This document shows positions 18,642 to 35,187 of a DNA stretch of 64,000 nt, piece by piece. The notes beneath the pieces are model-generated. The model had not been told where the DNA came from. It did no database searches and worked only from the letters and a program-made list of their open reading frames with translations. Origin of the DNA: Klenkia soli (GTDB lineage: Bacteria; Actinomycetota; Actinomycetes; Mycobacteriales; Geodermatophilaceae); the NCBI RefSeq assembly GCF_900103975.1, contig NZ_FNIR01000005.1, forward strand, positions 1 through 64,000. Direction: 5' to 3'. The position numbers and the translations under genes are program-made. Each line of letters opens with the position of its first letter. Within the stretch, counting starts at the first letter, position 1.

Positions 18642-20435
18642 ATGGCCGGCATGTCCTCAGCCCGGGTCCGGCTCGCCCTCACCGCTCAGCTGCTCCTCGC
18701 CGCAGCGCTCTACACCGTGGGTGCGGCGCGGTCGGGGTGGGGCAACGCGTACTACGCCGCCGCCGCGCAGGCGGGATCGGTGAGCTGGCACGCGTTCTGG
18801 TTCGGTGCGCTGGACCCCGCCGGGGGGATCACGGTGGACAAGCCACCGGCCTCGTTGTGGCTGATGGGGGCCTCTGTGCGGCTGTTCGGGCTGTCGCCGC
18901 AGGCCGTGCTCTGGCCGCAGGCGGTCTGTGGGGTTGGGGCGGTGTGGGTGCTGTACCTGACGGTGCGCCGGCACGCCGGCGCAGCCGCCGGCTTGCTGGC
19001 CTCGGGCATTCTGGCGCTCACCCCGGTGGTGACGCTGATGGCCCGCTACGACAACCCCGATGCGTTGATGACGCTGCTGTTGGTCGGGGCGGCCTATGCA
19101 ACAACTCGGGCCGTGGACCGGGATCGCGGTGGCCTTGCCTGGGTCGTGGTGGCCGGCGGTCTGGTGGGGACGGCATTCCTCACCAAGCAAATTCAGGCGC
19201 TCCTGGTGCTCCCTGCGCTCGTCGCGGTCCTGATGTGGGCCGGCCCAGGCTCTGTGGTGAGACGGTTGGGTCGTGCGGTCGCCGGAGGTGCCGCGGTTGT
19301 GGTGGCGGCGGGTTGGTGGGTGCTGCTCGTGCTGTCGACGCCGGTCTCGCAGCGGCCGTTCATCGGCGGCACGTCGACCAGCAGCATCTGGGAGCTGACC
19401 GTCGGCTACAACGGGCTGGGTCGGCTGAACGGGTCGGGGGCGAACGGGACGCATGCGGCCAGCTACGGCCGGTTGTTCGGGGGCAGCGCGGACGAGGCAG
19501 GTTGGCTGCTGCCCGCCGCCCTCCTTCTGCTCGTGGCGGCAGCTGTGGTGACCCGGCACGACCCGCGCCGGGATCCCCGCCGAGCCGGTTTGCTGCTGTG
19601 GGGTGGCTGGTTGCTCGTGGTGGGGGTCGTGCTCAGCAGCCTGCGGGGGATCTACCACAGCTATTACACCGTCGAGCTGGCTCCAGCCGTAGCTGCGGTG
19701 GTCGCCATCGGCGGTTCGGCGGTGTGGGCGGCCCGCGGACAGGTCCGGTGGGCGAACGGAGTGCTGATGGCCGTGGTCGCCGGGACGGGGGTGTGGGCGT
19801 GCGCGCTGCTGTTCGTGCAGCCGGCGTGGACGGTCCTCGCGGTGCCGGTCGTCGCCTGCGCCTCGGTGGTCGGTGTCGTCGCCCTCGCCCTGGATGGTCG
19901 GGGTGGGTTCGGCACGGCAACACGCCGGTTGGCTGCGACCGCGGGGTTGGTCGCCGCACTGGCCGCGCCGGCGACGTGGTCGGTGGCCACCGCAGCGTCG
20001 GTGCACCAGGGGGCCAACGTGCAGGCCGGACCGGGGGTGACCGAGTTGGGCACGGAGGCTGGGATTGTGCCGGGCACCCGGGTCCCGGTGGCCGTTGCCG
20101 ACCTGGTCGCGGCGGGCGCGGCTGGCCATGAGTGGGCGGCGGTGATGACTGGCCGGTACGCAGCGCAGGTGCAGCTGGCATCCGGGGCCCCGGTCCGGAT
20201 GCTCGGGGGCTTCACCGGTACCGACCCCGACCCGTCGCTGGCCGCCTTCCAAGACCTCGTCGCCGCCGGACGGGTGCACTACCTGCTCGTGGAGGCCAGC
20301 TCGCTGCGGTCCCGGCCGGACACCACGGCCGGGCAGATCACGGCATGGGCGGTACGCGGGTTCCCCCAGCGGCAGTACCAGGGATGGCTGGTCGTCGACC
20401 TGACCGCTGCGTCCCTGGCGGTCGCAGGCAGCTGA
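18642..20435 (+). CDS. GT39/ArnT-like membrane glycosyltransferase
   Basis: A 597-residue integral membrane protein of the ArnT/protein-mannosyltransferase superfamily with some 11-12 helices. It has the early periplasmic acidic loop with GGITVDKPPASLWLMG, where the conserved Asp sits, and ARYDNPDAL further on. A soluble domain is at the C-terminus (about 430-597). It would transfer a sugar from a polyprenyl-phosphate carrier to a lipid, wall polymer or protein outside the membrane. A second ATG nine bases downstream is possible. Upstream is an OmpR-type repeat set and downstream a strong terminator. Confidence 0.85.
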   Translation: MAGMSSARVRLALTAQLLLAAALYTVGAARSGWGNAYYAAAAQAGSVSWHAFWFGALDPAGGITVDKPPASLWLMGASVRLFGLSPQAVLWPQAVCGVGAVWVLYLTVRRHAGAAAGLLASGILALTPVVTLMARYDNPDALMTLLLVGAAYATTRAVDRDRGGLAWVVVAGGLVGTAFLTKQIQALLVLPALVAVLMWAGPGSVVRRLGRAVAGGAAVVVAAGWWVLLVLSTPVSQRPFIGGTSTSSIWELTVGYNGLGRLNGSGANGTHAASYGRLFGGSADEAGWLLPAALLLLVAAAVVTRHDPRRDPRRAGLLLWGGWLLVVGVVLSSLRGIYHSYYTVELAPAVAAVVAIGGSAVWAARGQVRWANGVLMAVVAGTGVWACALLFVQPAWTVLAVPVVACASVVGVVALALDGRGGFGTATRRLAATAGLVAALAAPATWSVATAASVHQGANVQAGPGVTELGTEAGIVPGTRVPVAVADLVAAGAAGHEWAAVMTGRYAAQVQLASGAPVRMLGGFTGTDPDPSLAAFQDLVAAGRVHYLLVEASSLRSRPDTTAGQITAWAVRGFPQRQYQGWLVVDLTAASLAVAGS

Positions 20436-21224: not shown

Positions 21225-22640
21225 GTGGATACCGCTGCTGACCCCAGGACGGAGAAGGGGCTGCCGTCGGGCCGGGTGGGCATGCGTGCCCGGGCGACGG
21301 CCGCTGCCGTTGCCGTGGTGGCCGTCGCGCTGGCGTTGGCGGCGACGGTGCTCGTCGGCCTGGTGGGGCGCACCGTGCAGGACACGGTGACGACGTCGGC
21401 GAGTACGCGAGTGCAGGAGGTGGCCGCCGACCTCCGGGTGAACGGTGTGGGCGGCCTGCAGATCGGCGGTTCTGAGGACGGTGCGCTGGTGCAGGTGTTG
21501 CGGGGGGACACGGTGCTGGCCGCCAGCGCCGACCTGGCCGGGGCGCCGGCCCTGACCGGGTTGACCCCCGGCCCCGGGCAGGAGGACACCGGGCAGGTGG
21601 ACGGCGCCGCGGTCAGCGAACCCGGGGACACCTTCCGCCTCGTCGTGCTCGGGGTGCCCGGCACCACCGGCGCCGACCGGGTGGTGGCCGTTCAGTCCCT
21701 GGCCGTCGCGGAGAATGCGCAGGCGCTGGTGACCCGGCTGGCCGCGGTCGGGGTGCCGGTGCTGCTGGTCGTCGTCGCGTTGGCCACCTGGTGGTCGGTG
21801 GGTCGGGCGCTGCGGCCGGTGGAGGCCATCCGGGCGCGGACCGCCCGCATCGGGGCTGAAGACCTGTCGGCCCGTGTGCCCCAGCCGCAGACGCGGGATG
21901 AGATCGCCGCTCTGGCGTCGACGATGAACGCGATGCTGGCCCGCTTGCAGACATCCGTGGCCCAGCAGCGCGCCTTCGTCTCCGACGCCGGCCACGAACT
22001 GCGCAGCCCGATCGCGACCATCCGCACCCAGACCGAGGTCGCCCGCCGAGTCGGCCCTCCTGATCCGGCCCATGACGTCGTGCTGGGCGAGGTCGCGCGG
22101 CTGGAGCGTCTGGTGACCGACATGCTGACCCTGGCCAGCGCCGACGAGGGGCAGGGCCGAGTGGGCCGTCGGCAGGACGTCGACCTCGACGACCTGCTGG
22201 CCGCCGAGCGTTCCCGGCTGCGGGCGCGGGCGGACCTCGTCGTGACCGGCGACCTGGCAGCTGCTCGCGCGTGGGGTGACCCAGCAGCGCTGGCCCAGGT
22301 CGTACGCAATGCCGTCGACAACGCCGTTCGGCACAGCCGCGGTCGCCTACACCTGACCAGCGGACCTACGGGTGGGCCGGACGGCGGTGCGTGGCTAGCT
22401 GTGGAGGACGACGGACCCGGGGTGGCCGTCCCGGACCGGGAACGGGTGTTCGGCAGGTTCGTCCGGCTGGATGAGGCCCGGGCCCGCGGCGACGGCGGTT
22501 CTGGGCTCGGGCTGGCCATCGTCCGGGAGATCGTGTTGGCCCACGGAGGGCATGTGAAGTTCACCGACCCGGTCACCTTGCCCGGCGCCCGGCTGCTCAT
22601 CCGTTTCCCGGCTCAACCGCCGTCGGGCTCGAAAAGGTAG
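21225..22640 (+). CDS. Sensor histidine kinase (HAMP, OmpR-type partner)
   Basis: A 471-residue kinase: membrane helix (about 23-45), short external domain, second helix (about 165-190), HAMP, HisKA with His in FVSDAGHELRSPIAT, and HATPase with NAVDNAVRH and GSGLGLAIV. The GTG start gives a short cytoplasmic lead; ATG at 21282 is possible. It runs toward its probable partner regulator on the other strand, and the two genes overlap by 28 bp at their 3' ends. Confidence 0.88.
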   Translation: MDTAADPRTEKGLPSGRVGMRARATAAAVAVVAVALALAATVLVGLVGRTVQDTVTTSASTRVQEVAADLRVNGVGGLQIGGSEDGALVQVLRGDTVLAASADLAGAPALTGLTPGPGQEDTGQVDGAAVSEPGDTFRLVVLGVPGTTGADRVVAVQSLAVAENAQALVTRLAAVGVPVLLVVVALATWWSVGRALRPVEAIRARTARIGAEDLSARVPQPQTRDEIAALASTMNAMLARLQTSVAQQRAFVSDAGHELRSPIATIRTQTEVARRVGPPDPAHDVVLGEVARLERLVTDMLTLASADEGQGRVGRRQDVDLDDLLAAERSRLRARADLVVTGDLAAARAWGDPAALAQVVRNAVDNAVRHSRGRLHLTSGPTGGPDGGAWLAVEDDGPGVAVPDRERVFGRFVRLDEARARGDGGSGLGLAIVREIVLAHGGHVKFTDPVTLPGARLLIRFPAQPPSGSKR

Positions 22641-23290
22641 CCCAGGCCGCGGACGGTGCGGATGCTGGCGCGACCGAAGGGCACGTCGATCTTGCGGCGC
22701 AGGTAGCCCACGTAGATCTCGACGTTGTTGACGTCCCCGTCGAAGGCGTCGTCCCAGACCTCCTGAAGGATCGTCAACTTGCTCAGCACCGTGTCCGGCC
22801 GCTCCATGAGGTAGGCCAGCAGCGCGAACTCGCGGGGGGTGAGCGCGATGTCGGTGGTACCGCGGCTCACCCGGTGCCGGGCGGGGTCCAGGACGAGGTC
22901 CCCGGCCCGCAGGACCGGAGATGGGCCGGTGCGCGCGCGCCGGGCCAGTGCCCGCAGGCGGGCGGTGAGCAGGACGAAGGAGAAGGGCTTAGTGAGGTAG
23001 TCATCGGCACCCAGGTCGAAGGCGTCGGCCTGGTCGTACTCGCCGTCCTTCGCGCTGAGCATCATCACCGGTGTGGTGACCCCGGAGCCGCGCAGCTCCT
23101 CCAGCACCCGGTAGCCGTGCAGCCCCGGCAGCATGATGTCCAGGACCACCACGTCGTAGCCGCCCTGCTGGGCGGCGTCGCGACCGCTGATGCCGTCGTG
23201 TGCGAGATCCACGGCGTGGCCCTCGGCGCGCAGCCCCCGGGCGATGGCGTGGGCAAGGCCGACCTCGTCGTCGACCAGCAGCACCTTCAC
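22613..23290 (-). CDS. Response regulator, OmpR/PhoB family
   Basis: A 225-residue regulator: receiver domain with VDDE, phospho-Asp in VVVLDIMLPG and Lys in LTKPF, then a winged helix (ALTPREFALLAYLMERPDTV to RRKIDVPFGRASIRTVRGLGY). It is probably the partner of the convergent kinase. The two mRNAs would be complementary over 28 bases at their 3' ends, which is unusual for a two-component pair. Confidence 0.92.
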   Translation of the reverse strand: MKVLLVDDEVGLAHAIARGLRAEGHAVDLAHDGISGRDAAQQGGYDVVVLDIMLPGLHGYRVLEELRGSGVTTPVMMLSAKDGEYDQADAFDLGADDYLTKPFSFVLLTARLRALARRARTGPSPVLRAGDLVLDPARHRVSRGTTDIALTPREFALLAYLMERPDTVLSKLTILQEVWDDAFDGDVNNVEIYVGYLRRKIDVPFGRASIRTVRGLGYLFEPDGG

Positions 23291-23321: not shown

Positions 23322-24119
23322 TCAACGCAGCGCGCCGGCCTCGACTGGGGGCAGCTGGTCGCGCTTGCTGACCGCCAGGTAGGACACGACGGCCAGGATC
23401 GTCACCAGGAAGATCACGCTGGTCAGCGTGGTGCCTAGCCCGAGGCCGCCGTCGACCTTGTCCTGGGAGAACCCGTCGCCCAGGGAGGCACCCAGCGGGC
23501 GGGTGAGGACGTAGGCGATCCAGAAGGTCAGCACCGCGTTGGCCCCGAGCACCAGGTGGCTGGCGGCGACCGCGCCGATGAGCGCGGCGAACAGCAGAGC
23601 CGACAACCAGTACCCCGCACCGAGCTTCTCCGCGATCAGGTCACCGGCGGCGGTGCCCAGGGCGAAGGTGAACAGGATGGCCAGCCAGTAGAAGGCCTCG
23701 CGGCGGCGGGTGACGATGGAGTGGATCGACAGCGTCCGCTCCGTGGCGTACCAGCCGGCGAAGGTCAGGGCCAGCGCGACGGTGAACAGTGCGGTGGTGA
23801 GCTCCAGCGGGACGCCGAGGTTGTCGGTCAGGTTGTCGGTGATGAGGGTGCCGACGACGCTGATCAGCACGACGGTGGCCCAGTAGAGCGGCGGGATGTA
23901 CCGCCGGGCCTTGAACTGGAAGCCGAGCACGACGAGGAAAATCGCGCCGACCACCACGGTGGTGCCGGTGAGGCCGAAGCCGAGAGTGCCGTTGAGGTAG
24001 TCCGCGGCGGTCTCCCCGACTGTGGTGGCCAAGATCTTGATGACCCAGAACCAGATGGTGACCTCGGGGACCTTGTTGAGCAGCGTGCGCCCCGTCGAGG
24101 GGGCCTGGGGTGTGGTCAT
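23322..24119 (-). CDS. COG4705-type membrane protein (first copy)
   Basis: A 265-residue protein with about eight hydrophobic helices. Motifs include VPEVTIWFWVIKILATTVGE, TRRREAFYWLAILFTFALGT and [18 protein letters not shown]. These identify the COG4705 'membrane-anchored' family, whose molecular role is not known but which often accompanies stress-type two-component systems in actinobacteria and acid-tolerant proteobacteria. A paralogue is at 33590. A shared operator lies 22 bp upstream of its start, pointing at this gene. Confidence 0.82.
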   Translation of the reverse strand: MTTPQAPSTGRTLLNKVPEVTIWFWVIKILATTVGETAADYLNGTLGFGLTGTTVVVGAIFLVVLGFQFKARRYIPPLYWATVVLISVVGTLITDNLTDNLGVPLELTTALFTVALALTFAGWYATERTLSIHSIVTRRREAFYWLAILFTFALGTAAGDLIAEKLGAGYWLSALLFAALIGAVAASHLVLGANAVLTFWIAYVLTRPLGASLGDGFSQDKVDGGLGLGTTLTSVIFLVTILAVVSYLAVSKRDQLPPVEAGALR

Positions 24120-24140
24120 GGCGGCAGAGTCGGGCCCAGC

Positions 24141-24161
24141 ATCTGCACACGACCTGAACGC
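24141..24161 (-). promoter_or_regulatory. GCGTTCAGGT-type operator (copy 1)
   Basis: Read on the minus strand, 15 of 21 bases match the copy at 33470-33490, including GCGTTCAGGTC and the second CAG half-site 11 bp on. It lies just upstream of the first COG4705 gene and 50 bp from the divergent regulator gene, so it could serve both. Confidence 0.55.
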
Positions 24162-24210
24162 ATCGCCCCGACCTCGGGGGGATGGCGGCCGGGTCACCCA
24201 TGATGGGGTG

Positions 24211-24903
24211 GTGAGCCAACTGCAGCCCCGGGTCCTGGTCGTCGAGGACGACCACGGCCTACGTGACGTGCTGGCCCGTGGGCTGCGCGAGCACGACTTC
24301 ACCGTCGTCACCGCCCGGGACGGCGCGGGCGCGCTGGGTGCGGTCCGCGGCGCAGGCGGGGATGACGGGGAAGGCTTCGACGCCGTCGTGCTGGACATCG
24401 GTCTGCCCGACTCCGACGGCCGGGACGTGTGCCAGGCGCTGCGCGCGCAGGGGCTCACCGCACCGGTGCTGTTCCTGACCGCCCGGGACCAACTGCACGA
24501 CGTGCTGTCCGGGTTCGCGGCCGGCGCCGACGACTACCTGGCCAAGCCGTTCCACCTCAGCGAGCTGCTGGCACGCCTGCGCGTGGCCCTGCGGCGCTCC
24601 GCAGCCGCACGCCCGGCAACGGCGGGCCTGACTCTGGACCCCACCACCCACGCCCTGGCCGGCCCGGCCGGGGCCCAGCGGCTCAGCCCCACGGAGTTCC
24701 GCGTCCTCGCCGCACTGATGGCCCGCCCCGGTGAGGTCGTCCGCCGCCGGGACCTGCTGGCCGCCGGCTGGCCCGACGGCGCCCAGGTCGCGGACAACAC
24801 CCTGGACCAGTACGTGGCACGGCTGCGCCGCAAGGTCGACGCCGCCGGCGACCCGGGCCGGTCGATCGGGACCGCGCACGGCGTGGGCTACACCTTCACG
24901 TGA
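24211..24903 (+). CDS. Response regulator, OmpR family
   Basis: A 230-residue regulator: receiver with VVEDDHGLRDVL, phospho-Asp in AVVLDIGLPDSDG, Lys in YLAKPFHLSE, and a winged-helix end (SPTEFRVLAALMARPGEV to TAHGVGYTF). The GTG at 24211 was chosen; the open frame upstream runs through the divergent promoter. It is co-translated with the following kinase. Given the position of the 24141 and 26261 sites, this is the leading candidate to bind the GCGTTCAGGT operators. Confidence 0.9.
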   Translation: MSQLQPRVLVVEDDHGLRDVLARGLREHDFTVVTARDGAGALGAVRGAGGDDGEGFDAVVLDIGLPDSDGRDVCQALRAQGLTAPVLFLTARDQLHDVLSGFAAGADDYLAKPFHLSELLARLRVALRRSAAARPATAGLTLDPTTHALAGPAGAQRLSPTEFRVLAALMARPGEVVRRRDLLAAGWPDGAQVADNTLDQYVARLRRKVDAAGDPGRSIGTAHGVGYTFT

Positions 24904-26243
24904 GCGACCGGGGCGCGCGCCGGAGCCTGCGCAGCCGGCTGTCCTGGTCGGCGACGGTGGTCGTCGCGCTGTGGGTGCTGCTGCTGGCGGTCGGCGCCAA
25001 CGAGCTGCTCGCCCGGGTCCTCGCGGGGCAGGCCGACGACGTCCTGCAGGCCCGGGCCGAGGCGGTCGCGCAGACCGTCGACGTGGCCCCCGACGGCACG
25101 GTGACGGTGCTCGACGGCCGGGACGACCAGGCGCTGGACGTCGGCACCTGGATCTTCGACGGCGCCGGCGGGATCGTCGAGAGGCCGCCGGGCAGCACTG
25201 ATGCGCTGGACCGTCGGGCCGCCGACCTCGCCGCGCAGGGCGCCAGCACCGTCGACGTCGACGCCAGCGGGCCCGTCCGGCTGCGATCGCTCCCGCTCAC
25301 CGACGGCGGCCAGCAGGTCGCCGCCGTGGTGACCAGCACCTCACTGTCGCCCTACCAGCAGGTCGAGCGGACCGCCCTGCTGGGCAGCATCGGGGTGGCC
25401 CTGCTGCTGGTCGTCGTCGTCCATCTCGTGCTGCGCGCCAACGTCACCCGCGCCCTCCGCCCGGTCCAGGACATGAGCACCCAGGCCGGCCGGTGGAGCG
25501 CTGACGACACCGATCTGCGGTTCGGCGACGACCCGCGCCCGGCCGAGCTCGCCGAGCTGGCCGGCACTCTGGACCAGCTGCTGGACCGGCAAGCTGCCGT
25601 CCTGCGCCACGAACAGCGCTTCACCGAGGAGCTGTCCCACGAGCTGCGTACCCCGCTGGCCCGCGCCCAGGCCGAGATCGACCTGCTGCGCGCCCAGCCG
25701 CGGGACGCCCGCGAACTCGCCGACGCCCACGCAGCCATCGACCGGTCCACCCGCGCGATGGCATCCATCCTCGAGACGATGCTCACCGCGGCCCGCAGCG
25801 CCGACGCGGTCACCCCGGGCCGGACCCGGCTGCTCGACGCGCTGGCCGTCCTGGCCGACCCCGACGCCCAGGACGTCCGCGTACCCGTCCACCTGACCGG
25901 AGATCCCGACCTCGTCGTCGGGGTAGACGCCGACGTCGTCGTCCGGGCCCTGTCCCCCGTGGTCGACAACGCCGTCCGCTTCGCCGCCGGCCAGGTACGC
26001 ATCCAGGCCGAGGCCCGCGCGGGGCAGCTGGTCGTCACGGTGCTCGACGACGGCCCAGGCATGACCGAGCAGGCTGCCGACCGGGCCTTCGACCCCGGGT
26101 ACCGGGGCGACCCGGACGACGGCCACGCCGGCGCCGGCCTGGGCCTGGCCCTGACCCGGCGGCTCGTGCTGGCCGCCGGTGGATCGGTGACAGCGGTGGC
26201 CGGCGACCGCGGCCGCGTCGAGATCGCCCTCCCGCGCGGGTGA
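24900..26243 (+). CDS. Sensor histidine kinase, OmpR-type partner
   Basis: A 447-residue kinase: helix (about 15-38), external domain of about 120 residues, second helix (about 160-180), HAMP, HisKA with FTEELSHELRTPLARAQ, and HATPase ending in GAGLGLALTRRL. The GTG overlaps the regulator's stop by four bases. The gene is followed 17 bp later by an operator and a DedA gene, tying it to membrane-lipid functions. Confidence 0.9.
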   Translation: MSDRGARRSLRSRLSWSATVVVALWVLLLAVGANELLARVLAGQADDVLQARAEAVAQTVDVAPDGTVTVLDGRDDQALDVGTWIFDGAGGIVERPPGSTDALDRRAADLAAQGASTVDVDASGPVRLRSLPLTDGGQQVAAVVTSTSLSPYQQVERTALLGSIGVALLLVVVVHLVLRANVTRALRPVQDMSTQAGRWSADDTDLRFGDDPRPAELAELAGTLDQLLDRQAAVLRHEQRFTEELSHELRTPLARAQAEIDLLRAQPRDARELADAHAAIDRSTRAMASILETMLTAARSADAVTPGRTRLLDALAVLADPDAQDVRVPVHLTGDPDLVVGVDADVVVRALSPVVDNAVRFAAGQVRIQAEARAGQLVVTVLDDGPGMTEQAADRAFDPGYRGDPDDGHAGAGLGLALTRRLVLAAGGSVTAVAGDRGRVEIALPRG

Positions 26244-26260
26244 GACCGGGAGCACCGGCC

Positions 26261-26281
26261 ACGTTCAGGCGGCGTACAGAC
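26261..26281 (+). promoter_or_regulatory. GCGTTCAGGT-type operator (copy 2, degenerate)
   Basis: CGTTCAGG followed by a CAG half-site at the same 11-bp step as in the other copies; 13 of 21 positions agree with the copy at 28127. It sits between the sensor kinase stop and the DedA start. Confidence 0.4.
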
Positions 26282-26303
26282 TCCGTGAGCGACGGTGGTG
26301 GGC

Positions 26304-26915
26304 ATGAGCGGCTTCCTGGACCCGACGAACCTCATCAACACCTTCGGCTTGATCGGCATCATGGCGATCCTGTTCGCCGAGACTGGCCTCCTGGTCGGCT
26401 TCTTCCTGCCGGGTGACTCCCTGCTGTTCACCGCCGGACTGCTCGCAGCCGGCGGGCTGATCGCCCCGTTGTGGGTGCTGCTGCTCCTGCTGCCGGTGGC
26501 GGCGATCGCCGGGAACCTGGTCGGCTACTGGATCGGCCGCAAGGCCGGTCCCGCCGTCTTCAACCGTCCCGACAGCCGCCTGTTCAAGGCCGAGTACGTC
26601 GAACGGTCCCAGGCGTTCTTCGACCGCAACGGCGCCCGCACCATCGTGCTGGCCCGCTTCGTGCCCGTTGTCCGCACCTTCGCCACCGTCATGGCCGGCG
26701 CCTCCCGGATGGACCTGCGCCGCTACGCCGTCTACTCCGTCATCGGCGGCATCGCCTGGGCCGCGGGTGTCACCCTGCTGGGCTTCTGGCTCGGCCAGGT
26801 CGCGCTGGTGCGCGACCACGTCGAGCTGTTCATCCTCGGCATCGTCGCCCTGTCCCTGGTTCCCGTGGCCGTCGAGTTCCTCCGTGCCCGATCCGATCGC
26901 CGGGTCCGCAGCTGA
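26304..26915 (+). CDS. DedA family membrane protein (second copy)
   Basis: A 203-residue DedA protein: FAETGLLVGFFLPGDSLLF (with the conserved acidic and Pro-Gly-Asp residues), NLVGYWIGRKAG, and LARFVPVVRTFATVMAGAS with the key arginines. Family members translocate undecaprenyl phosphate or other lipids. It belongs to a different DedA branch from the copy at 13850 (G-D-S instead of P-S-E in the first motif). ATG at 26304 was preferred to a GTG nine bases before. Confidence 0.9.
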   Translation: MSGFLDPTNLINTFGLIGIMAILFAETGLLVGFFLPGDSLLFTAGLLAAGGLIAPLWVLLLLLPVAAIAGNLVGYWIGRKAGPAVFNRPDSRLFKAEYVERSQAFFDRNGARTIVLARFVPVVRTFATVMAGASRMDLRRYAVYSVIGGIAWAAGVTLLGFWLGQVALVRDHVELFILGIVALSLVPVAVEFLRARSDRRVRS

Positions 26916-27067
26916 TCGCTCGACCGGCCGATCTACCCCGGGGTCTACTGACGATGCGGAGTTGGCCGTCCGCTCACCATCGGCTGACCGCCCGCTGTCC
27001 GACCCGGCCCCAGCCTGGACGCTGGCGAGCCGACCGGGTCGCTCGGGGGACGACGATCGGAGCAGTC

Positions 27068-28081
27068 ATGGGCACGCGGGGGCACTGGGTCGTCACCGGC
27101 GGCGCCGGGTACGTCGGCGGGCACGTCGTGCGCGCCCTGCACCGGGCAGGCCTGGATCAGGTGGTCATCGACGACCTGTCCACCGGGGTGGCCGCGCGCC
27201 TGCCCCGCGGGGTGCCGCTGGTGCGAGGGCAGGTCGGGGACCGCGACGTGCTGGATGCCTGCCTCCCCGGCGCGGCCGGCGTCGTGCATCTGGCGGCGCA
27301 GACCTCCGCACCCGGATCGGTTCGTGACCCGCTCGCGCACTACCGGGCGAACGTGGCCGACGTCGTCACGCTCACCTCGGCCATTCTGGATCACGGCGTG
27401 GACAAGCTGGTGGCCAGTTCCTCTGCCGCCGTCTACGGCGCAACGTCGGGGTCGGCACAGCTGTCCCGCCACACCGAGACCGACGTGTTGCACCCGCAGA
27501 GTCCCTACGGCAAGACGAAAATGATCGGTGAGATGGTCCTCGCCGACGCCGTGGCCAGCGGACTGTCCTCGATCGCGTTGCGCTACTTCAACGTGGCGGG
27601 TGCGGCGACCGAGGTGCTCGCCGACCGAAAAGTAGGTGGGCTGCCATCAGCGGTCCTGCAGGCCCGCCGGACCGGCCGGCCGCTACCGGTCCACGGTCTG
27701 GACCACCCCACACCCGACGGCACGGCGGTGCGGGACTACGTGCACGCCGTCGACGTCGCCTCGGCCCACGTGGCCGCGGTCGCCCGCCTGATGGATGCCG
27801 CGCTGGGTGCCTCGGTCTACAACGTGGGCACGGGGGTGGGCTCCTCGGTCCTGGACGTACTACGGGTGACCGCCGAGATCACCGGCGGCCCGGTACCCCA
27901 CAAGATCCACGGACGCCGTCCGGGCGATCCGTCGCACGCCGTCGCCGACGTGTCGGCCATCGCCCGGGACCTGGGGTGGCGCGCACGCCACGACCTGGGG
28001 GACTGCTTGCAGTCGGCGTGGGAGACGACGGGTGGGCACCTGCTCTCCCGGTCCCACCGAACCCTCGCTTCTGTCAGCTGA
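27068..28081 (+). CDS. NAD-dependent sugar epimerase, GalE-like
   Basis: A 337-residue extended short-chain dehydrogenase. The NAD loop GGAGYVGGH is at 11-19. Active-site Ser/Thr lie in SSSAAVYG, and the Tyr-x-x-x-Lys pair lies in SPYGKTK. RYFNVAGA and RDYVHAVDVA are typical of UDP-glucose 4-epimerases. It probably makes UDP-galactose or a related precursor for the glycosyltransferases in the element. The 150-bp gap upstream shows no clear operator. Confidence 0.88.
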   Translation: MGTRGHWVVTGGAGYVGGHVVRALHRAGLDQVVIDDLSTGVAARLPRGVPLVRGQVGDRDVLDACLPGAAGVVHLAAQTSAPGSVRDPLAHYRANVADVVTLTSAILDHGVDKLVASSSAAVYGATSGSAQLSRHTETDVLHPQSPYGKTKMIGEMVLADAVASGLSSIALRYFNVAGAATEVLADRKVGGLPSAVLQARRTGRPLPVHGLDHPTPDGTAVRDYVHAVDVASAHVAAVARLMDAALGASVYNVGTGVGSSVLDVLRVTAEITGGPVPHKIHGRRPGDPSHAVADVSAIARDLGWRARHDLGDCLQSAWETTGGHLLSRSHRTLASVS

Positions 28082-28126
28082 GCTGCCGCGGCCTCGCCAG
28101 CCGCCGGCGGGCGGTCAGGTGGTCAG

Positions 28127-28147
28127 GCGTTCAGGTGGTCGTCAGGA
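28127..28147 (+). promoter_or_regulatory. GCGTTCAGGT-type operator (copy 3)
   Basis: Nineteen of 21 bases are identical to the copy at 33470-33490; only the two central bases differ. Two more TCAGG half-sites lie just upstream at 28115 and 28123 (8-bp steps), making an array of four. It precedes the micro-ORF at 28198. Confidence 0.7.
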
Positions 28148-28197
28148 GCGCCTCCCTACCGTCGCCGTGCCTTCGCCGACTCACCTGGAGGACTTCC

Positions 28198-28257
28198 GTG
28201 GCCGACGCTCCCGCCTCCGCCCCGCTCGACCCCGTCGGGGAATCCGACTGCCGGTGA
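28198..28257 (+). CDS. Micro-ORF (19 residues) with strong ribosome site
   Basis: A GTG start is preceded by GGAGG at a good spacing. The frame encodes 19 residues (starting ADAPASAPLDPVGESD after the initiator) and its TGA overlaps the GTG of the next gene by four bases. It may be a leader that couples translation of the small membrane protein, or a functional micropeptide. It is too short to place in a family. Confidence 0.5.
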   Translation: MADAPASAPLDPVGESDCR

Positions 28258-28463
28258 GCGGCCACGTCGAACAACTGCTGTCGGACCTGTCGATGACACT
28301 GCTCGCGTTCCTGACCTCAGTAGCCGCGGTCATCGGGCTGGCGCTGCGATGGGGTCGGTCCTGGCGGGACCAGAAGGACGCCGTCGACCCGCCTCCCGGG
28401 GCGCAGCAGTCCGACCCTTCTGAGCAGAGTCCGGCTGCCCGCCATCGGCCCCCGCACCGGTGA
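28254..28463 (+). CDS. Small membrane protein, 69 residues
   Basis: One hydrophobic helix (LLAFLTSVAAVIGLALRW, about 16-33) is followed by a basic then Pro/Gln/Ser-rich cytoplasmic tail. It is translationally coupled to the micro-ORF before it and lies under the operator at 28127. Small one-helix proteins under stress regulators often tune a sensor kinase; the kinase at 28477 is on the opposite strand and converges on it. The function is unknown. Confidence 0.55.
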   Translation: MSGHVEQLLSDLSMTLLAFLTSVAAVIGLALRWGRSWRDQKDAVDPPPGAQQSDPSEQSPAARHRPPHR

Positions 28464-28476
28464 CCCCGGACGACGA

Positions 28477-29820
28477 TCAGCTGTCCGCAGACGCCGGCAG
28501 CAGCAGGCTGAAGACCGGCGGGCTCGGGCTGGCCACCCGCAGCCGGCCCCCCTCGGCCTCGGCCAGGGTGCGGGCCAGGGCGAGGCCGATGCCGTGGCCG
28601 TCGTCGCGGTGGCTGCCGCGCACGAACAACCGGTCGACCTCCAACGGCGTCGTCCCCTCGTCGGCGACATCGACGGCCAGCGCGCCGCCGGCGTCGCGGA
28701 CGGAGACGGTCACGGCACCGGCGCCGTGCACGGTGGCGTTGTCGACCAGCACCCCGACGACCTGGCGGACCGCCGCAGCGGACACCGCCGTGCCGGGCAG
28801 GTCACCTTCCAGGTGCAACTGCAGGACGCGGTCCTGGCGGTCGAGCAACGGACCCCAGGTCGCCTGCACCTCGGCGAGCAACTGTGCCGGGTCCAGTGGT
28901 GTGCCGTGCGCCCCGGTGTCCCGGGCCAACGCGAGCAGGTCGGTGATGGTGTTCTCCAGCCGGTCGGTGGAGGTCAGGGCGTTCTCGATGGCTGCCCGAT
29001 GGGCCTCAGCGGGCAGCTCCAGCGCGGTCTCCAGCGACAGCCGCAGGCCGGTCAGCGGGGTGCGCAGCTGATGGGAGGCATCGGCGGAGAACGCCCGCTC
29101 CCGCGCCAGCAGGGCACCCAGTCGTCCAGCGGTCGTGTCCAGGGCCGACCCCGCAGCGTCGAGCTCGGCGATGCCCGAACGGGCGGTCCGGGTGCCGAAG
29201 TCACCCTCGCCCAACTGCTGTGCCGCCACCGCCAGGGACTCCAGCGGTTGGGCCAGGCGGGCTGCCTGTCGGCGGGCCAGCAGCCAGGTGACGCCGACCG
29301 CTGCCGCAGCGAGGGCCAGCATGCCGGCCCAGGTGCCCACGATGCGCCATCGCACGGCGCTGTAGTCGGTGGCTGCGCGCACGACACCGCGGGTGCTGTC
29401 CCCGTCGACGACCGGGACGGCGACGACGAGTTGGCCGTCGATGTCGTTGGCGGTGGACACCCGGCCGTCGCCCAGCGCGTCAGCCGAGGCGGGGTCGAGT
29501 TCCTGTGGTCCATCACCGGCGACGAGTTCCCCATCAGTGCTGTAGAACGCGACGGCGACGTCACCGTCGCGACCCTGCCCACCGCCCAGGCCGGTGGGCG
29601 TGCGGCCGGCGGCGACGTCGAAGGCGACCGAGACGGCGTCGACGTCGGCGATGCGCTCCAGTTCACTCTGCTCGTCGCCGAGGTAGGACTGGGCGACTCC
29701 GTATGCCAGTGGGAGCCCGAACAGGGTGGTGGCCACGACAGCGGCCAGCACGGCCTGGGCGACGATGCGGCCGCGCATGCTGGCCCAGCGGCGACCCCGG
29801 ACCGGTCGCGGATCGGTCAC
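28477..29820 (-). CDS. Sensor histidine kinase, OmpR-type partner
   Basis: A 447-residue kinase: first helix (about 20-43), external domain (about 45-155), second helix (about 160-180), HAMP, HisKA with FSADASHQLRTPLTG (Gln in place of the usual Glu after His, common in actinobacteria), and HATPase with DNATVHG and GHGIGLALA. Its GTG overlaps the stop of the regulator gene upstream by four bases. Confidence 0.9.
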   Translation of the reverse strand: MTDPRPVRGRRWASMRGRIVAQAVLAAVVATTLFGLPLAYGVAQSYLGDEQSELERIADVDAVSVAFDVAAGRTPTGLGGGQGRDGDVAVAFYSTDGELVAGDGPQELDPASADALGDGRVSTANDIDGQLVVAVPVVDGDSTRGVVRAATDYSAVRWRIVGTWAGMLALAAAAVGVTWLLARRQAARLAQPLESLAVAAQQLGEGDFGTRTARSGIAELDAAGSALDTTAGRLGALLARERAFSADASHQLRTPLTGLRLSLETALELPAEAHRAAIENALTSTDRLENTITDLLALARDTGAHGTPLDPAQLLAEVQATWGPLLDRQDRVLQLHLEGDLPGTAVSAAAVRQVVGVLVDNATVHGAGAVTVSVRDAGGALAVDVADEGTTPLEVDRLFVRGSHRDDGHGIGLALARTLAEAEGGRLRVASPSPPVFSLLLPASADS

Positions 29821-30512
29821 GGCAGGTCCAGCCGGTAGCCGTGACCGCGCAGGGTGCTGATCTGCGGCTGGGGCACCCCGAGTCCATCGGCGACGACCGC
29901 GAGCTTGCGCCGGAGCGCGGCCACGTGCACGTCCAGGGTCTTGGTGGACCCGAACCAGTGCGCGTCCCAGACGTCCTCCATCAGGGTCTCGCGGCTCACC
30001 GCCGCACCCGGTTGCGCTGCCAGCCGCGCGAGCAGGTCGAACTCCTTCGTCCGGAGCACCACCTCGGCTCCCCCGACCGCGACGCGGCGGGCAGCGAGGT
30101 CGACGGTCAGCTCACCGACGACGACCGTGGCCTGCACGGCCGGGATGACCGAGCTGCGCCGCAGGTGTGCCCGCACCCGGGCCAGGAGCTCACCGAACCG
30201 GAAGGGTTTGGTCAGGTAGTCATCGGCCCCGGCTTCCAGACCGACGACGACGTCCATCTCCTCGGCGCGGGCGGTCAGCACCACGATCACGCACCCCGGC
30301 TGGGCTGCCCGGATGCGGCGGCACACCTCGATGCCGTCCAGGTCGGGCAGGCCGAGGTCCAGCAGCACCAGGTCGAAAGACCGGCCGGCGACGGCGTCCA
30401 GGGCGCTGCGGGCGGTGCGCTGCCAGGACACCGAGTGCCCGTGCGCCCGCAGCCCCGATCCGAGGGCGCCCCCGATGGTCTCGTCGTCCTCCACAACCAG
30501 CAGATCCGCCAT
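29817..30512 (-). CDS. Response regulator, OmpR family
   Basis: A 231-residue regulator: VVEDDE, phospho-Asp in LVLLDLGLPDLDG, Lys in YLTKPFRFGE, and a winged helix (LRTKEFDLLARLAAQPGAAV to STLRGHGYRLDLP). The ATG at 30512 was chosen; a longer frame begins at 30590 but adds unrelated residues. It is divergent from the GT28 gene, with a 150-bp promoter region between. It is an alternative candidate for binding the GCGTTCAGGT sites. Confidence 0.92.
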   Translation of the reverse strand: MADLLVVEDDETIGGALGSGLRAHGHSVSWQRTARSALDAVAGRSFDLVLLDLGLPDLDGIEVCRRIRAAQPGCVIVVLTARAEEMDVVVGLEAGADDYLTKPFRFGELLARVRAHLRRSSVIPAVQATVVVGELTVDLAARRVAVGGAEVVLRTKEFDLLARLAAQPGAAVSRETLMEDVWDAHWFGSTKTLDVHVAALRRKLAVVADGLGVPQPQISTLRGHGYRLDLP

Positions 30513-30662
30513 ACCGCTGACGGTAGGGCCCACCCACGGGTCGGACGGGGCTCCCGGTGGCGCCGGGACAGGGGTTTGCCTGGCGCTCACCTTCTACCCA
30601 CCGAACGCTGACCTGGCCCTCAGCAGCATCGGCGGTGTTCCCGACCGATGGAGGAGAGCCCT

Positions 30663-31844
30663 GTGGCCACCGCAGCAACCCACACCGTCCTGGACCGTCC
30701 CGCGACCCCGTCCGGTGATGCTGTCGCCGGCCCGGGCACCCGGGTGCTCGTGGTGACCGGGAGCGTGGGGGCCGGGCACGACGGCGCCGCCCACGAACTG
30801 GCCGCCCGGCTGACCGCGGCCGGCGCGCGGGTCGAGGTCCGGGACTTCCTCGACGCGCTACGGCCCCGACTGGCCTGCTCGCTGCGCAGCGGGTACACCG
30901 GCGGGGTCGGGCGGGCACCGGTGCTGGTCGAGCTGCTGTACCGGCGGCTGGAGCACCGCGGTCTGCTGTGGGCCATCGAGCGCCGCATCTGCCGTTCCGC
31001 CGAGACTGCCATGCGGGGCTGGGTGGACGCGATCGATCCCGACGTCGTGGTCACCACCTACCCACTGGCCGCCCAGACCCTCGGTGACCTGCGCGCCGCC
31101 GGCGACATCAGGGTCCCGGTGCTGACCTACCTGACCGACCCGGCCGTGCACGTCAGCTGGCTGCACCCGGCCGTCGACGCCCACCTCACCGTCACCGCGG
31201 CCACCGCCGCGCAGGGGCGTCGCGACTACGGCCTGCCCTTCACCGTCGCCGGACCGCTGGTGCCCGCTCGCTTCGGGCAGACGATGGACCTCGCCGAACT
31301 GGTGGCCCTGCGCGGGGAGGTCGGCGTGCGCACCGACCGGCCCGTCGCCCTTCTGGTCGCCGGATCCCTCGGCCTGGGCGATGTCGCCGGTGCCGCAGTC
31401 GACGTGGCCGCCGCCGGGTTCTCCCCGGTCGTGCTGTGCGGACGCAACGCGGCATTGCGGGACCGGCTGGACCGGCTGCCCGACGTCCTGGCGCTGGGCT
31501 GGCGCACCGACATGCACCGGCTGATGCAGCTCGTCGACGTCCTGGTGCACAACGCCGGTGGCCTGACCTGCACCGAGGCCCTGGTTGCCGGGCTGCCCAC
31601 CGTGACCTACAAGCCCATCCCCGGGCACGGTCGCGCCAACGCCACCGTGCTGCACGAGTCCGGGATGGGCCCGTGGGCCACCGACCCGGTCGACCTGCGC
31701 GCCGCCCTGCTGGCACAGCTGGGGCGAGACCGGACCCCACCGGCGATGCCGGACCCCACCGACACCGTGCTGTCCTGGGTGCCCGCTGCCCGCCGCCCGG
31801 CTCGTCCTGCTGTCCTGGCTGCCGCACTGGCGGTGGCGGCGTGA
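30663..31844 (+). CDS. GT28-type glycosyltransferase (MGDG synthase/MurG-like)
   Basis: A 393-residue GT-B enzyme. The N-terminal GSVGAGHDGAAHELAARL is the hallmark of the MGDG-synthase family. The C-terminal domain has HNAGGLTCTEALVAGLPTV, the nucleotide-sugar-binding segment shared with MurG. It probably glycosylates a membrane lipid such as diacylglycerol. GTG at 30663 has a GGAGG site eight bases upstream; the ATG at 30648 overlaps that site. It starts a block of coupled genes (deacetylase, DMT-type transporter). Confidence 0.85.
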   Translation: MATAATHTVLDRPATPSGDAVAGPGTRVLVVTGSVGAGHDGAAHELAARLTAAGARVEVRDFLDALRPRLACSLRSGYTGGVGRAPVLVELLYRRLEHRGLLWAIERRICRSAETAMRGWVDAIDPDVVVTTYPLAAQTLGDLRAAGDIRVPVLTYLTDPAVHVSWLHPAVDAHLTVTAATAAQGRRDYGLPFTVAGPLVPARFGQTMDLAELVALRGEVGVRTDRPVALLVAGSLGLGDVAGAAVDVAAAGFSPVVLCGRNAALRDRLDRLPDVLALGWRTDMHRLMQLVDVLVHNAGGLTCTEALVAGLPTVTYKPIPGHGRANATVLHESGMGPWATDPVDLRAALLAQLGRDRTPPAMPDPTDTVLSWVPAARRPARPAVLAAALAVAA

Positions 31845-32557
31845 GCGCCCCCACCATGACCACCGCAGTGGCCGGGGCCGCCGCCGGGTTGTGGCACGCC
31901 GCGCCGGCGCTGACCTCCATCGGTCCGCTGCGCCGCCCGCTCCCCCGGTTGTCCGGGCAGGGGAGGCCCGGTGGCATCGGGCTGACCTTCGACGACGGCC
32001 CCGACCCGCTGGGGACACCGGCCGTGCTCGCCGAGCTCGACCGCCTGGGGTGGACGGCGACGTTCTTCATGCTGGGCAGCCAGGTCCGCGCCCACCCCGA
32101 CGTCGCTCGCTCGGTCGTCGCCGCCGGCCACGAGATCGCCGTGCACGGAGACCTGCACCGAGTGCATCTGGTCCGCACCGCAGCCCAGGTCCGCTCCGAC
32201 CTGACCCGGGCCCTGGGTGACATCCGCGCGGTCACCGGCACCGACCCGCGCTGGTTCCGCCCGCCCTACGGCGTGCTCACCGCCGGGTCGCTCATCGCGG
32301 CCCGCAGCCTCGGGCTCACCCCCGTGCTGTGGACAGCCTGGGGCCGGGACTGGCAGAAGGCCAACCCCGCATGGGTGCTCGACAACGTCATGTCCGGCCT
32401 GGCCGACGGCGGCACCCTGCTGCTGCACGACTCCGACTGCACCAGCACCCCGCGCTCCTGGCGCACGACCGCCCGCACCCTGCCGCTGCTGGCCGAGCGG
32501 CTCGACGAGATGGGACTGCACGTCCGGCCCTTGCGCGACCACCTGACCGCGGCATGA
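31841..32557 (+). CDS. Polysaccharide deacetylase (NodB/CE4 family)
   Basis: A 238-residue protein. NodB motif 1 is LTFDDGPD, motif 2 is HGDLH (a Gly where Ser/Thr is usual), motif 3 RPPYG, and the last motif LLLHDSD. Metal ligands Asp, His, His are therefore present. It would remove acetyl groups from wall or lipid-linked glycans. A short hydrophobic N-terminus may anchor it. The GTG overlaps the glycosyltransferase stop and its own stop overlaps the next start. Confidence 0.87.
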   Translation: MSAPTMTTAVAGAAAGLWHAAPALTSIGPLRRPLPRLSGQGRPGGIGLTFDDGPDPLGTPAVLAELDRLGWTATFFMLGSQVRAHPDVARSVVAAGHEIAVHGDLHRVHLVRTAAQVRSDLTRALGDIRAVTGTDPRWFRPPYGVLTAGSLIAARSLGLTPVLWTAWGRDWQKANPAWVLDNVMSGLADGGTLLLHDSDCTSTPRSWRTTARTLPLLAERLDEMGLHVRPLRDHLTAA

Positions 32558-33465
32558 TCGCGGCCCTGCTGGCGCTCGCGTCCGCTCTGGCGTACGCGAT
32601 GTCCACGGTCATCGGCCACCGGGCCGCCACGTCCGCCCTGTCCGGCGTCGGCTCGGGGTGGGCCCGAGCGGGTCGGCTGCTGCGACGCCCCGGGTTCCTG
32701 CTGGGCCAGGCCGCGGGTCTTCTCGGGCTCGTCCTGCACGCCGCTGCCCTGGCAGCGGGTCTGGTCGTGGTGGTGCAGCCGATCCTGTGCGTCGGGCTCG
32801 TGCTCGCCCTGGTGCTCGGCGCGGTCGTCGACCGTCGCCACCCTGATCGCCCGCTGCCGGGACGCGGGCAGTGGTGGTCCGCAGGGATGGTCGTCGCCGG
32901 TCTGGTCGTCTTCTTGACCAGTGCAGCCCCCACGGCCGGCAGCGGGTCCGCCGTCGGCTGGGCGTTGCCCGCCGCCGTCGGGGCTCTCGCTGCCGCATCG
33001 GCCGCCGTCGGCATCGCTGTGCACCGCGGCCGTCTGCGTCGCCCCGCGGCAGCGCTGGCAGCCTGCTCCGGGCTGGCATTCGGGCTGACCGGGGTGCTGC
33101 TCAAGGCCGTGCTGGCGCTGCCGGTGACCGCGTGGCCGCTTGCCTGGCCGGTCTACGCCCTGATCGGGGTCGGGTTGGCCGGTACGGCGCTCGCGCAGTG
33201 GTCCTACGCCACCGGCCCACTGGTGCAGTCGCAGCCGGTGGCCTCAGCGCTTGAGCCGGTGGTCGCGGTCGCCCTGGCCGGACCGGTGTTCGCCGAAGGC
33301 CTCGCCGGTGGGCCGGTCGCGCACCTGGCACAGCTGGCCGGCCTGGTGCTGCTCGTCGCCGGGGTCATCGGGGTGGGACGGTGCGCCACCGCCCGCGAAG
33401 CCCGCCCGGGCAGTAGCGACCCGGCCGAGGACGAGGACCGCGTGCCGGTGCTCGCCTCGTACTGA
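32554..33465 (+). CDS. DMT/EamA-like ten-helix transporter
   Basis: A 303-residue membrane protein with two halves of about five helices each, the DMT superfamily layout. Motifs include AGLVVVVQPILCVGLVLALVLG and QSQPVASALEPVVAVALAG, matching actinobacterial DMT proteins of unknown substrate. Co-translation with the deacetylase and glycolipid glycosyltransferase suggests a lipid or glycan precursor as substrate, which is inferred. Confidence 0.8.
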   Translation: MIAALLALASALAYAMSTVIGHRAATSALSGVGSGWARAGRLLRRPGFLLGQAAGLLGLVLHAAALAAGLVVVVQPILCVGLVLALVLGAVVDRRHPDRPLPGRGQWWSAGMVVAGLVVFLTSAAPTAGSGSAVGWALPAAVGALAAASAAVGIAVHRGRLRRPAAALAACSGLAFGLTGVLLKAVLALPVTAWPLAWPVYALIGVGLAGTALAQWSYATGPLVQSQPVASALEPVVAVALAGPVFAEGLAGGPVAHLAQLAGLVLLVAGVIGVGRCATAREARPGSSDPAEDEDRVPVLASY

Positions 33466-33469
33466 TGAG

Positions 33470-33490
33470 GCGTTCAGGTCCTCGTCAGGA
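33470..33490 (+). promoter_or_regulatory. GCGTTCAGGT-type operator (copy 4)
   Basis: Nineteen of 21 bases are identical to 28127-28147. The two TCAGG half-sites are 11 bp apart. The site begins five bases after the transporter stop and about 100 bp before the second COG4705 gene, so it marks a separate promoter for COG4705-uppP. Confidence 0.7.
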
Positions 33491-33589
33491 TTCCCCCTCC
33501 ACCATCACCGCGGCCCTCCCGGCCCCAGGCACCACCCCACGGGCTCAACGCCGAGCTCCCCGCCTCGTCGTCCCCTTCTGGAGCAGCCC

Positions 33590-34354
33590 GTGCCGCAGCA
33601 CGCCCCGTCCACCCGCCCGCGGGTGCCGGTCACCGCCGTCAAGGTCCCCGCCGTCACCGCGGTCTTCTGGCTGATCAAGGTGCTCACCACCGGCACGGGC
33701 GAGGCCGCCGCCGACGGAGCCGCAGCCTGGAATCTGCCCGTCGCGGTCGCGGTGTCCGGGGTCGGTCTGGTCGCCGCGCTGTGGTGGCAGCTGTGCGCCG
33801 ACGCCTACCACCCGGGCCGCTACTGGACGGCGGTCACGATGGTCGCGGTGTTCGGCACGATGGTCGCCGACGGCCCGCACGTCGTGCTCGGCCTGCCCTA
33901 CCCGGTCACCGCCGGGCTCGCCGCCCTGGGACTGGCGGTGGTGTTCGCGGTGTGGCACCGGCTCGAGGGCACCCTCGACGTGCACAGCATCACCACCCGC
34001 CGCCGCGAGCTCCTCTACTGGGCCGCGGTGCTGACCACCTTCGCCCTGGGCACCGCCCTCGGTGACCTGGCCGCCGTGGTGTGGCACCTGGGCTTCGCCG
34101 GCTCCATCGTGCTGTTCGCGCTGGCCATCGTCCTGCCCTGGGTCGGCTGGGCCCGGTTCAGGCTGTCGCCGGTGGTCGCGTTCTGGGCCGCCTACGTCCT
34201 GACCCGCCCGCTGGGCGCCTCGGTCGCCGACTGGCTGGGCAAGCCCGCCCACCTGGCTGGCGGCCTCGGCCTCGGTGACGGCCCGGTCGCGGTGACCGGT
34301 CTGGTGCTCATCGCCGTTCTGGTGGCGACGACGGCCCGCCGGGCGACCCGGTGA
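33590..34354 (+). CDS. COG4705-type membrane protein (second copy)
   Basis: A 254-residue protein with eight helices, homologous to the one at 23322: [40 protein letters not shown] and [18 protein letters not shown] align closely with the first copy. GTG start with GGAG seven bases upstream. Its stop overlaps the uppP GTG, coupling it to undecaprenyl-phosphate recycling. The molecular function of the family is unknown. Confidence 0.82.
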
Positions 34355-35187
34355 GCTGGTTCGAGGCCCTCGTCCTCGGGATCGTGCAGGGGCTGACGGA
34401 GTTCCTCCCGGTGTCCTCCAGTGCGCACCTGCGCATCGTCGGCGCCCTCGCCGGCTGGTCCGACCCGGGTGCGGCGTTCACCGCGATCATCCAGATCGGC
34501 ACCGAGCTCGCCGTGCTCGTGTACTTCGCCCGCGACATCGCCCGGATCGTCACCGCGTGGGTGGCCTCCCTCGTGCAGCGGGACCGCCGCGGCGACCCCG
34601 ACGCCCGGATGGGCTGGCTGATCATCGTCGGCAGCGTCCCGATCGTGGTGCTGGGCCTGCTGCTGCAGAGCACGATCGAGACCACCTTCCGCGACCTGCG
34701 CATCGTCGCCACCGCGCTGATCGTGTTCTCCGTGGTCCTGCTGGTGGCCGACCGGGTCGGCCGCAAGCAGCGCACGCTGGAGGAGCTCACCGTCGGGCAC
34801 GGCGTCGCCTTCGGCCTGGCCCAGGCCCTCGCGCTGGTCCCCGGCGTCTCGCGGTCCGGCGGCACCATCACCGCCGGCCTCCTGCTGGGCTACACGCGGG
34901 AGGCGGCGGCGCGCTACTCCTTCCTGCTCGCCGTCCCGGCGGTGCTCGGGTCGGGCGCCTACCAGGCCTACGACGCGCTGCACGGCGACACCGCGGGCGC
35001 CCCGGTGGCCTGGGGCCCGACCGCGCTGGCCACCGTCGTGTCCTTCGGCGTCGGGCTGGCCGTCATCGCCTGGCTGCTCCGGTACCTGCAGCGGGGGAGC
35101 TTCGTGCCCTTCGTCGTCTACCGCGTCGTGCTGGGGGTGCTGGTGCTGGGCCTGGTCGGCGGTGGGGTGCTCGCGGCGGCCGTCTGA
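34351..35187 (+). CDS. uppP: Undecaprenyl-diphosphatase UppP/BacA
   Basis: A 278-residue integral membrane phosphatase. Motif [15 protein letters not shown] near residue 12 carries the catalytic Glu and Ser, and the PGVSRSGGT motif at about 165 carries the key Arg. It recycles undecaprenyl diphosphate to the monophosphate for wall synthesis and gives bacitracin resistance when abundant. As a second copy on an element it would raise carrier supply. It overlaps the COG4705 gene by four bases. Confidence 0.95.

Follow-up and report, generated by a model that had tools for sequence, protein, structure and literature searches.

The promoters controlled by the response regulator CiaR of Streptococcus are predicted by the pattern TTTAAG-N5-TTTAAG and its distance of ten to the -10 element (PMC3091779), and three paralogous Frankia operons holding UppP and DUF347 genes are described as up-regulated under lead stress, with a proposed role in metal handling (PMC4531530; restated in PMC11534348). 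Here we describe an operator in a 64,000-nucleotide stretch of the Klenkia soli contig NZ_FNIR01000005.1 (positions 1 to 64,000; hereafter the window), a directional 11-bp tandem repeat in which GTTCAGG is followed 11 bp on by a CAG half-site. Its four window copies face two genes of the DUF347 (COG4705) type, DUF347a and DUF347b, a DedA-family gene and a micro-ORF. The operator is genuine and conserved and belongs to a known kind; its reach is wider, and its mechanism better defined, than the first-pass annotation of this DNA had seen. No description of the motif or regulon was found in a limited search of the open-licence literature.

Operator 1 (GTTCAGGTCGTGTGCAGA, 24142..24159) lies on the minus strand and is directed at DUF347a, while operators 2 (GTTCAGGCGGCGTACAGA, 26263..26280), 3 (GTTCAGGTGGTCGTCAGG, 28129..28146) and 4 (GTTCAGGTCCTCGTCAGG, 33472..33489) lie on the plus strand ahead of DedA, the micro-ORF and the DUF347b-UppP pair, respectively. 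All four fall in gaps between accepted genes of the window, each directed at the next gene. The first-pass annotation had placed copies near 24141, 26261, 28127 and 33470, and all of these are present with the second CAG in place; those at 28127 and 33470 show two differences and agree at 19 of 21 bases, just as it had reported. The orientation toward membrane genes that it noticed is likewise borne out, with the correction that the copy at 24141 is on the minus strand and faces the DUF347 gene.

Each operator is followed at 10 bp by a -10-like hexamer: GACTCT (24126..24131, minus strand) 6 nt ahead of the DUF347a start codon ATG 24119, GACGGT (26291..26296, plus) 7 nt ahead of ATG 26304 of DedA, TACCGT (28157..28162, plus) before the micro-ORF, and CACCAT (33500..33505, plus) 84 nt from GTG 33590 of DUF347b. 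The DedA start that is compatible with this promoter is ATG 26304 and not GTG 26295; it was set from relatives, five orthologues on other contigs beginning likewise, 7-8 nt after their -10. Because their start codons lie only 6 and 7 nt after the -10, the DUF347a and DedA transcripts are probably leaderless, whereas an 84-nt leader is predicted for DUF347b.

The first half-site alone is weak evidence, since CGTTCAGG has seven window copies, compared with an average of 1.82 over 100 shuffles, one of which gave 7, and the three extra copies (16488, 37039 and 44313) lack the second CAG at that position. The full repeat is far rarer. GTTCAGG-N7-CAG has 11 matches in the 4.76-Mb genome versus one for the backwards pattern, namely four in the window, three at a paralogous locus and four elsewhere; the last four (contigs C11, C15, C17 and C18) have no -10, are absent from the composite of operator plus -10, and were treated as chance. 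A genome-wide motif scan, a check that the first-pass annotation had proposed, finds the composite seven times, at the four window sites and at the three of the second locus (contig C8) only. A matrix of 36 columns was built from 37 sites, none of them of the own genome. With it the four window sites score 29.7-36.6 and nothing else in the window reaches 8; among twenty 64-kb sequences simulated with a Markov-1 model the highest score was 15.8.

The second locus (L009) has the compact order DUF347a, regulator, kinase, DedA, micro-ORF, DUF347b. Five of its six proteins are 87-92% identical to their window counterparts and the micro-ORF product 65%. It holds three operators with a -10; the micro-ORF stands directly behind DedA and has no operator ahead of it. 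Extra to the window copy are an epimerase gene, a kinase-regulator pair (28477/29817), a polysaccharide deacetylase, an MGDG-type glycosyltransferase and a membrane protein that matches nothing in Pfam. All 16 DUF347 repeats of the genome (E ≤ 0.001) fall in these two loci, in two genes each. The regulon is thus not internal to one element, as had been supposed, because the second locus, on another contig, carries three further sites, and the arrangement recurs across the family.

The geometry of the promoters was studied in 51 aligned contexts (DUF347a, DedA, DUF347b and "other") of the own genome and its relatives, which came from a scan allowing up to two mismatches and a by-eye choice of sites ahead of genes; seven ABC-type sites were excluded, and 40 contexts were kept after removing those with at least 60% flank identity. 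The choice used the repeat itself and not the -10. NANNNT is found exactly 10 bp downstream of the operator in 36 of the 40 non-redundant sites, and no more than two sites have it at any of the other offsets between 0 and 29. The core columns carry 1.73 bits, a value that is partly due to selection of the sites, versus 0.21 in the flanks. The spacing to the -10 is constant on the DUF347a side and varies, as judged by eye, on the divergent regulator side. With the -10 at this distance the repeat covers the -35 position, as it does where a regulator of the PhoB type acts by class II activation. The direct half-sites 11 bp apart, the fixed -10 spacing and the linked gene for a regulator that has both a receiver and a Trans_reg_C domain all accord with that class.

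In the family, 23 of 112 genomes contain the composite, with 51 matches in all, and the backwards control has none. Targets were called by tblastn of the 700 bases behind each match, which gave 22 DUF347a, 17 DedA, 6 DUF347b, one PAP2 phosphatase, one PMT_2 glycosyltransferase and one micro-ORF, that of the window. Three of the 51 gave no match, two of them without an evident target (G040 and G106) and one at a DedA remnant: in L123 (4390-4500) operator and -10 are retained ahead of a DedA gene truncated after about 18 codons, and the same genome has an intact DedA with its own operator on another contig, beside a second 24211 homologue. Five DedA matches are on contigs other than those of DUF347. 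Two of these (G037 and G097) stand behind a 24900-type kinase and reflect the usual order cut by contig ends; in the other three (G034, G035 and G095) the gene has moved and keeps the composite. The moved DedA of G095 is beside a second 24211 homologue, and those of G034 and G035 (loci L283 and L305) are away from the 24211 locus. Outside the window, all 22 loci in which the fetched stretch holds a 24211 homologue have a site with up to two mismatches ahead of DUF347a, and so has the window. Where no such homologue is near, DUF347 genes have no site directly upstream (L127, L129, L130 and L131) or a weak one (L125); L134, whose DUF347a stands at the edge of its contig, and L128, where the contig stops about 80 bp away, are too near an end to judge. 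The first-pass view of a shared operator, directed at membrane genes and defining a regulon, is supported.

A related repeat, GTTCAGGGTCNGTTCAGGGC, lies ahead of an ABC-transporter ATPase gene in L135-L141 and other family genomes (Pfam checked for L135), with three tandem half-sites in G026, G031 and G032; its -10 spacing differs, and no 24211 homologue is present in the stretches fetched. The ATPase site GTTCAGGGTCNGTTCAGG of other family genomes was left out of the regulon because its -10 spacing is different and the fetched stretches hold no 24211 homologue. In two genomes without a DUF347a match, GTTCAGGTGACGTTCAGG stands upstream of a small membrane-protein gene (L142:3664 and L143:3715), the product of which in L142 has a weak DUF7937 match, below cut-off.

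The regulator that best follows the operator is 24211 (24211..24903, plus strand; PF00072, PF00486), encoded divergently from DUF347a. Its homologues (E ≤ 1e-60) occur in 23 of the 112 genomes, including 21 of the 23 with the composite; 21 genomes have both, two the regulator only, two the operator only and 87 neither (Fisher 2e-18). The regulator-only genomes are G059, where the homologue is 55% identical and no composite was found, and G096, where the site has a changed base; the operator-only genomes are G040 and G106. A 24211-type regulator is present in both own-genome loci. The first-pass annotation had named both 24211 and 29817, of which the former fits better (21 of 23 operator genomes) and the latter worse (11 of 23).

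We therefore favour the reading, at a probability of roughly three in four, that the sites are the class II activator operator of the 24211 regulator, controlling DUF347, DedA and, through DUF347b, UppP. The sensor histidine kinase 24900 (24900..26243, plus; HisKA and HATPase_c, with HAMP below cut-off), the presumed partner, would phosphorylate the OmpR/PhoB-type regulator 24211, two monomers of which would bind the 11-bp repeat head to tail at about -40 to -23 in place of a -35 box and recruit RNA polymerase to the -10 element 10 bp downstream. The regulon would comprise DUF347a (perhaps with regulator 22613), DedA, the micro-ORF, DUF347b-UppP and the three matching promoters of the second locus, and its function may be to raise undecaprenyl-phosphate recycling under envelope or metal stress. 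The sequences show the sites themselves, their orientation, the constant distance to the -10, their conservation and their co-occurrence with 24211; binding by 24211, activation rather than repression, the signal and the function are what we infer from them.

Several observations weigh against this reading. Fisher's test overstates independence, because the genomes are related, and in the homologue counts about 25 of up to 73 first-look candidates were scored per genome, so that absences are not proven. Since 24211 and DUF347a share one locus, their co-occurrence may reflect linkage rather than binding. In G034 and G035 the contig that bears the moved DedA and its operator carries a 29817-type regulator. 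The second own-genome locus has no UppP match. The operator grows scarcer outside the family: five of 20 order-level DUF347a loci fetched keep an upstream site with up to two mismatches, and a composite search of 298 order-level genomes, drawn from a larger group, gave 15 matches outside the family versus four in the backwards control; the targets of the 15 are three DUF347a genes, two small secreted proteins (PepSY-like by eye) and, in ten cases, none evident. A Streptomyces plasmid has the order DedA, PAP2, PAP2, regulator (a 56% relative of 24211), kinase, and no such site ahead of DedA.

As to side observations, small secreted proteins stand behind similar sites in L310 and L321 (judged by eye) and at L197:3657-4022, the last with a PepSY match just below cut-off. 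In Actinomadura harenae (L201:3656-4906, minus strand) the DUF347 frame extends about 150 residues past the DUF347 part.

The common theme of the predicted operator targets is undecaprenyl-phosphate recycling. This link, which the first-pass annotation had drawn, is strengthened by the overlap of UppP with DUF347b and by like sites elsewhere ahead of UppP (L108, L197), PAP2 phosphatase (L113, L124, L188, L197) and PMT_2 glycosyltransferase genes (L106, L107), although of these eight cases the composite set includes L113 and L106 only. On this basis DUF347 (COG4705) could be an unrecognised working part of undecaprenyl-phosphate recycling, for example as a carrier, or as a helper of UppP and DedA, under a dedicated actinobacterial two-component regulon whose operator could serve to find the missing members; we offer this tentatively.

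A reading compatible with control by 24211 concerns the signal, which may be lead, zinc or similar metals, with DUF347 and UppP exporting the metal or precipitating it as phosphate. We give it a substantial chance, somewhat short of even. The rise of the Frankia UppP+DUF347 operons under lead stress, for which such a role was proposed (PMC4531530, PMC11534348), makes a metal a reasonable guess, and heavy-metal models are the best matches of both kinase 24900 and regulator 22613; these matches are, however, below cut-off (TIGR01386, 141.8 bits against 292.55, and TIGR01387, 215.4 bits against 279.2), and lead could act through phosphate or envelope stress. Regulator 24211 itself scores 145.3 bits with TIGR01387, likewise under the cut-off of 279.2.

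Either regulator 22613 or regulator 29817 might instead read the operators, singly or jointly with 24211, but we consider this unlikely. In favour of 22613, its relatives adjoin DUF347a in a number of order-level loci that have no 24211, CTTCAG/GTTCAG repeats being present in some of these (L187, L188), and a 75% relative in L129 has a GTTCAGGTCGCGTACAGG site upstream. The case for 29817 comes from G034 and G035, where DedA, moved together with its operator, adjoins a 28477-type kinase and shares its contig with a 29817-type regulator. At E ≤ 1e-75, however, 22613 is found in 24 genomes, 11 with the composite and 13 without, and 29817 in 26, 11 with and 15 without, and the second own-genome locus has three operators while the sole genome copies of 22613 and 29817 are both in the window. 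Regulator 29817 was seen in three of 23 site-bearing DUF347a loci (fetched stretches plus window). As sole cognate regulator it is not favoured, being in 11 of 23 operator genomes, and the kinase context in G034 and G035 keeps it a candidate.

Repression is a still less probable account. The operator spans the -35 position, so a regulator bound there might keep polymerase off until it is released by a signal, and response regulators are able to repress from sites that overlap a promoter, as reported for CutR (PMC12802291). Activation is favoured instead by the constant 10 bp to the -10 in 36 of 40 sites and by the identical geometry of the promoters that CiaR activates (PMC3091779). CutR was rejected as the reader of these sites, its published motif, TAWATAAA, being unlike this operator (PMC12802291).

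We think it very improbable that a general phosphate regulator of the PhoP type reads these sites as PHO boxes. Those described for Streptomyces coelicolor consist of direct repeats of 11 bp with GTTCACC, and the Actinosynnema paper that gives them calls GTTCAGGT a PHO box-like motif (PMC9019756). The first half-site is, however, GTTCAGG and not GTTCACC in both own-genome loci, including all four window sites; the PHO pattern at up to one mismatch has 11 own-genome matches, none on the window's contig (C20); and no more than 23 of 112 genomes have the composite, where a general phosphate regulator would be expected to be widespread. That the similarity is mere shared descent of a duplicated locus, without function, is less likely still in spite of the 87-92% identity in five of six proteins, as conservation across genomes is seen in the core and the -10 but falls to near background in the flanks, and three moved DedA genes retain the composite.

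DUF347a (23322..24119, minus strand; PF03988, 1.5e-59) has four DUF347 repeats and eight predicted helices, and DUF347b (33590..34354, plus) matches PF03988 at 6.1e-38; with 198.5 and 129.3 bits both exceed the gathering cut-off of 28.2 for the repeat domain. The AF2 model of DUF347a has a mean pLDDT of 85.9 and no PDB match at E ≤ 0.001 in Foldseek; the best VIA-align match, to a SotB transporter chain, has a Z of 6.9 over 121 residues, and no function was drawn from it. UppP/BacA undecaprenyl-diphosphatase (34351..35187, plus; NF001392, 358.3 bits, cut-off 308) overlaps the end of DUF347b, and operator 4 therefore probably drives UppP through DUF347b. The DedA protein (26304..26915, plus; VTT domain PF09335, 3.2e-23, scored from the 26295 start) reaches 64.1 bits with the UptA model NF052604, under its cut-off of 250, and so falls short of identification as an undecaprenyl-phosphate carrier.

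The micro-ORF (28167..28463, plus) encodes 98 amino acids from GTG 28167 or 69 from GTG 28254, the longer form having no Pfam match and the shorter no NCBIfam match; its relatives in L009, L105 and L106 are 65%, 53% and 58% identical. A possible 19-codon leader frame with GGAGG ahead of it (28200-28256, plus; seen by eye) overlaps GTG 28254 at its end, which would couple its translation to that of the micro-ORF.

A second OmpR-type response regulator, 22613 (22613..23290, minus; PF00072, PF00486), is encoded downstream of DUF347a in the same direction, after a gap of 31 bp, and may be co-transcribed with it. It is convergent with a histidine kinase gene (21225-22640, plus), the 3' ends overlapping, and similar convergent pairs are beside DUF347a in L106, L107, L110 and L115. 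No operator was found at the PMT_2/YkcB-type glycosyltransferase gene of the window (18642-20435, plus); the same class carries one in L106 and L107.

The main value of the operator is that it ties DUF347 (COG4705) to undecaprenyl-phosphate recycling. DUF347 is still named a domain of unknown function, and the operator gives it a functional neighbourhood and a direct test; if the reading is true, actinobacteria have a dedicated control circuit for lipid-carrier recycling.

Among known systems, the actinobacterial PHO box shares with this operator its 11-bp direct repeats beginning GTTCA (PMC9019756) and differs in CACC as against CAGG, as well as in distribution, the operator described here being limited to the genomes with 24211 plus two exceptions. 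The PmrA (BasR) box, TTTAAGNNNNNTTTAAG in Acinetobacter (PMC10927774), is likewise a direct repeat with a 5-bp gap, but its hexamer is different, its described targets are pmrC and naxD rather than DUF347, DedA and UppP, and 24211 scores 129.2 bits with the PmrA model, below the 330-bit cut-off. The CiaR operator has the same 6-bp direct repeat, 5-bp gap and 10 bp to the -10, and is activated by its response regulator (PMC3091779), whereas activation is a prediction here; its half-sites are TTTAAG in Streptococcus, those of our sites are TTCAGG-like and do not form TTTAAG-N5-TTTAAG, and regulon and phylum are both different. With the Frankia operons the likeness is one of content, DUF347 and UppP genes standing together and being co-regulated (PMC4531530).

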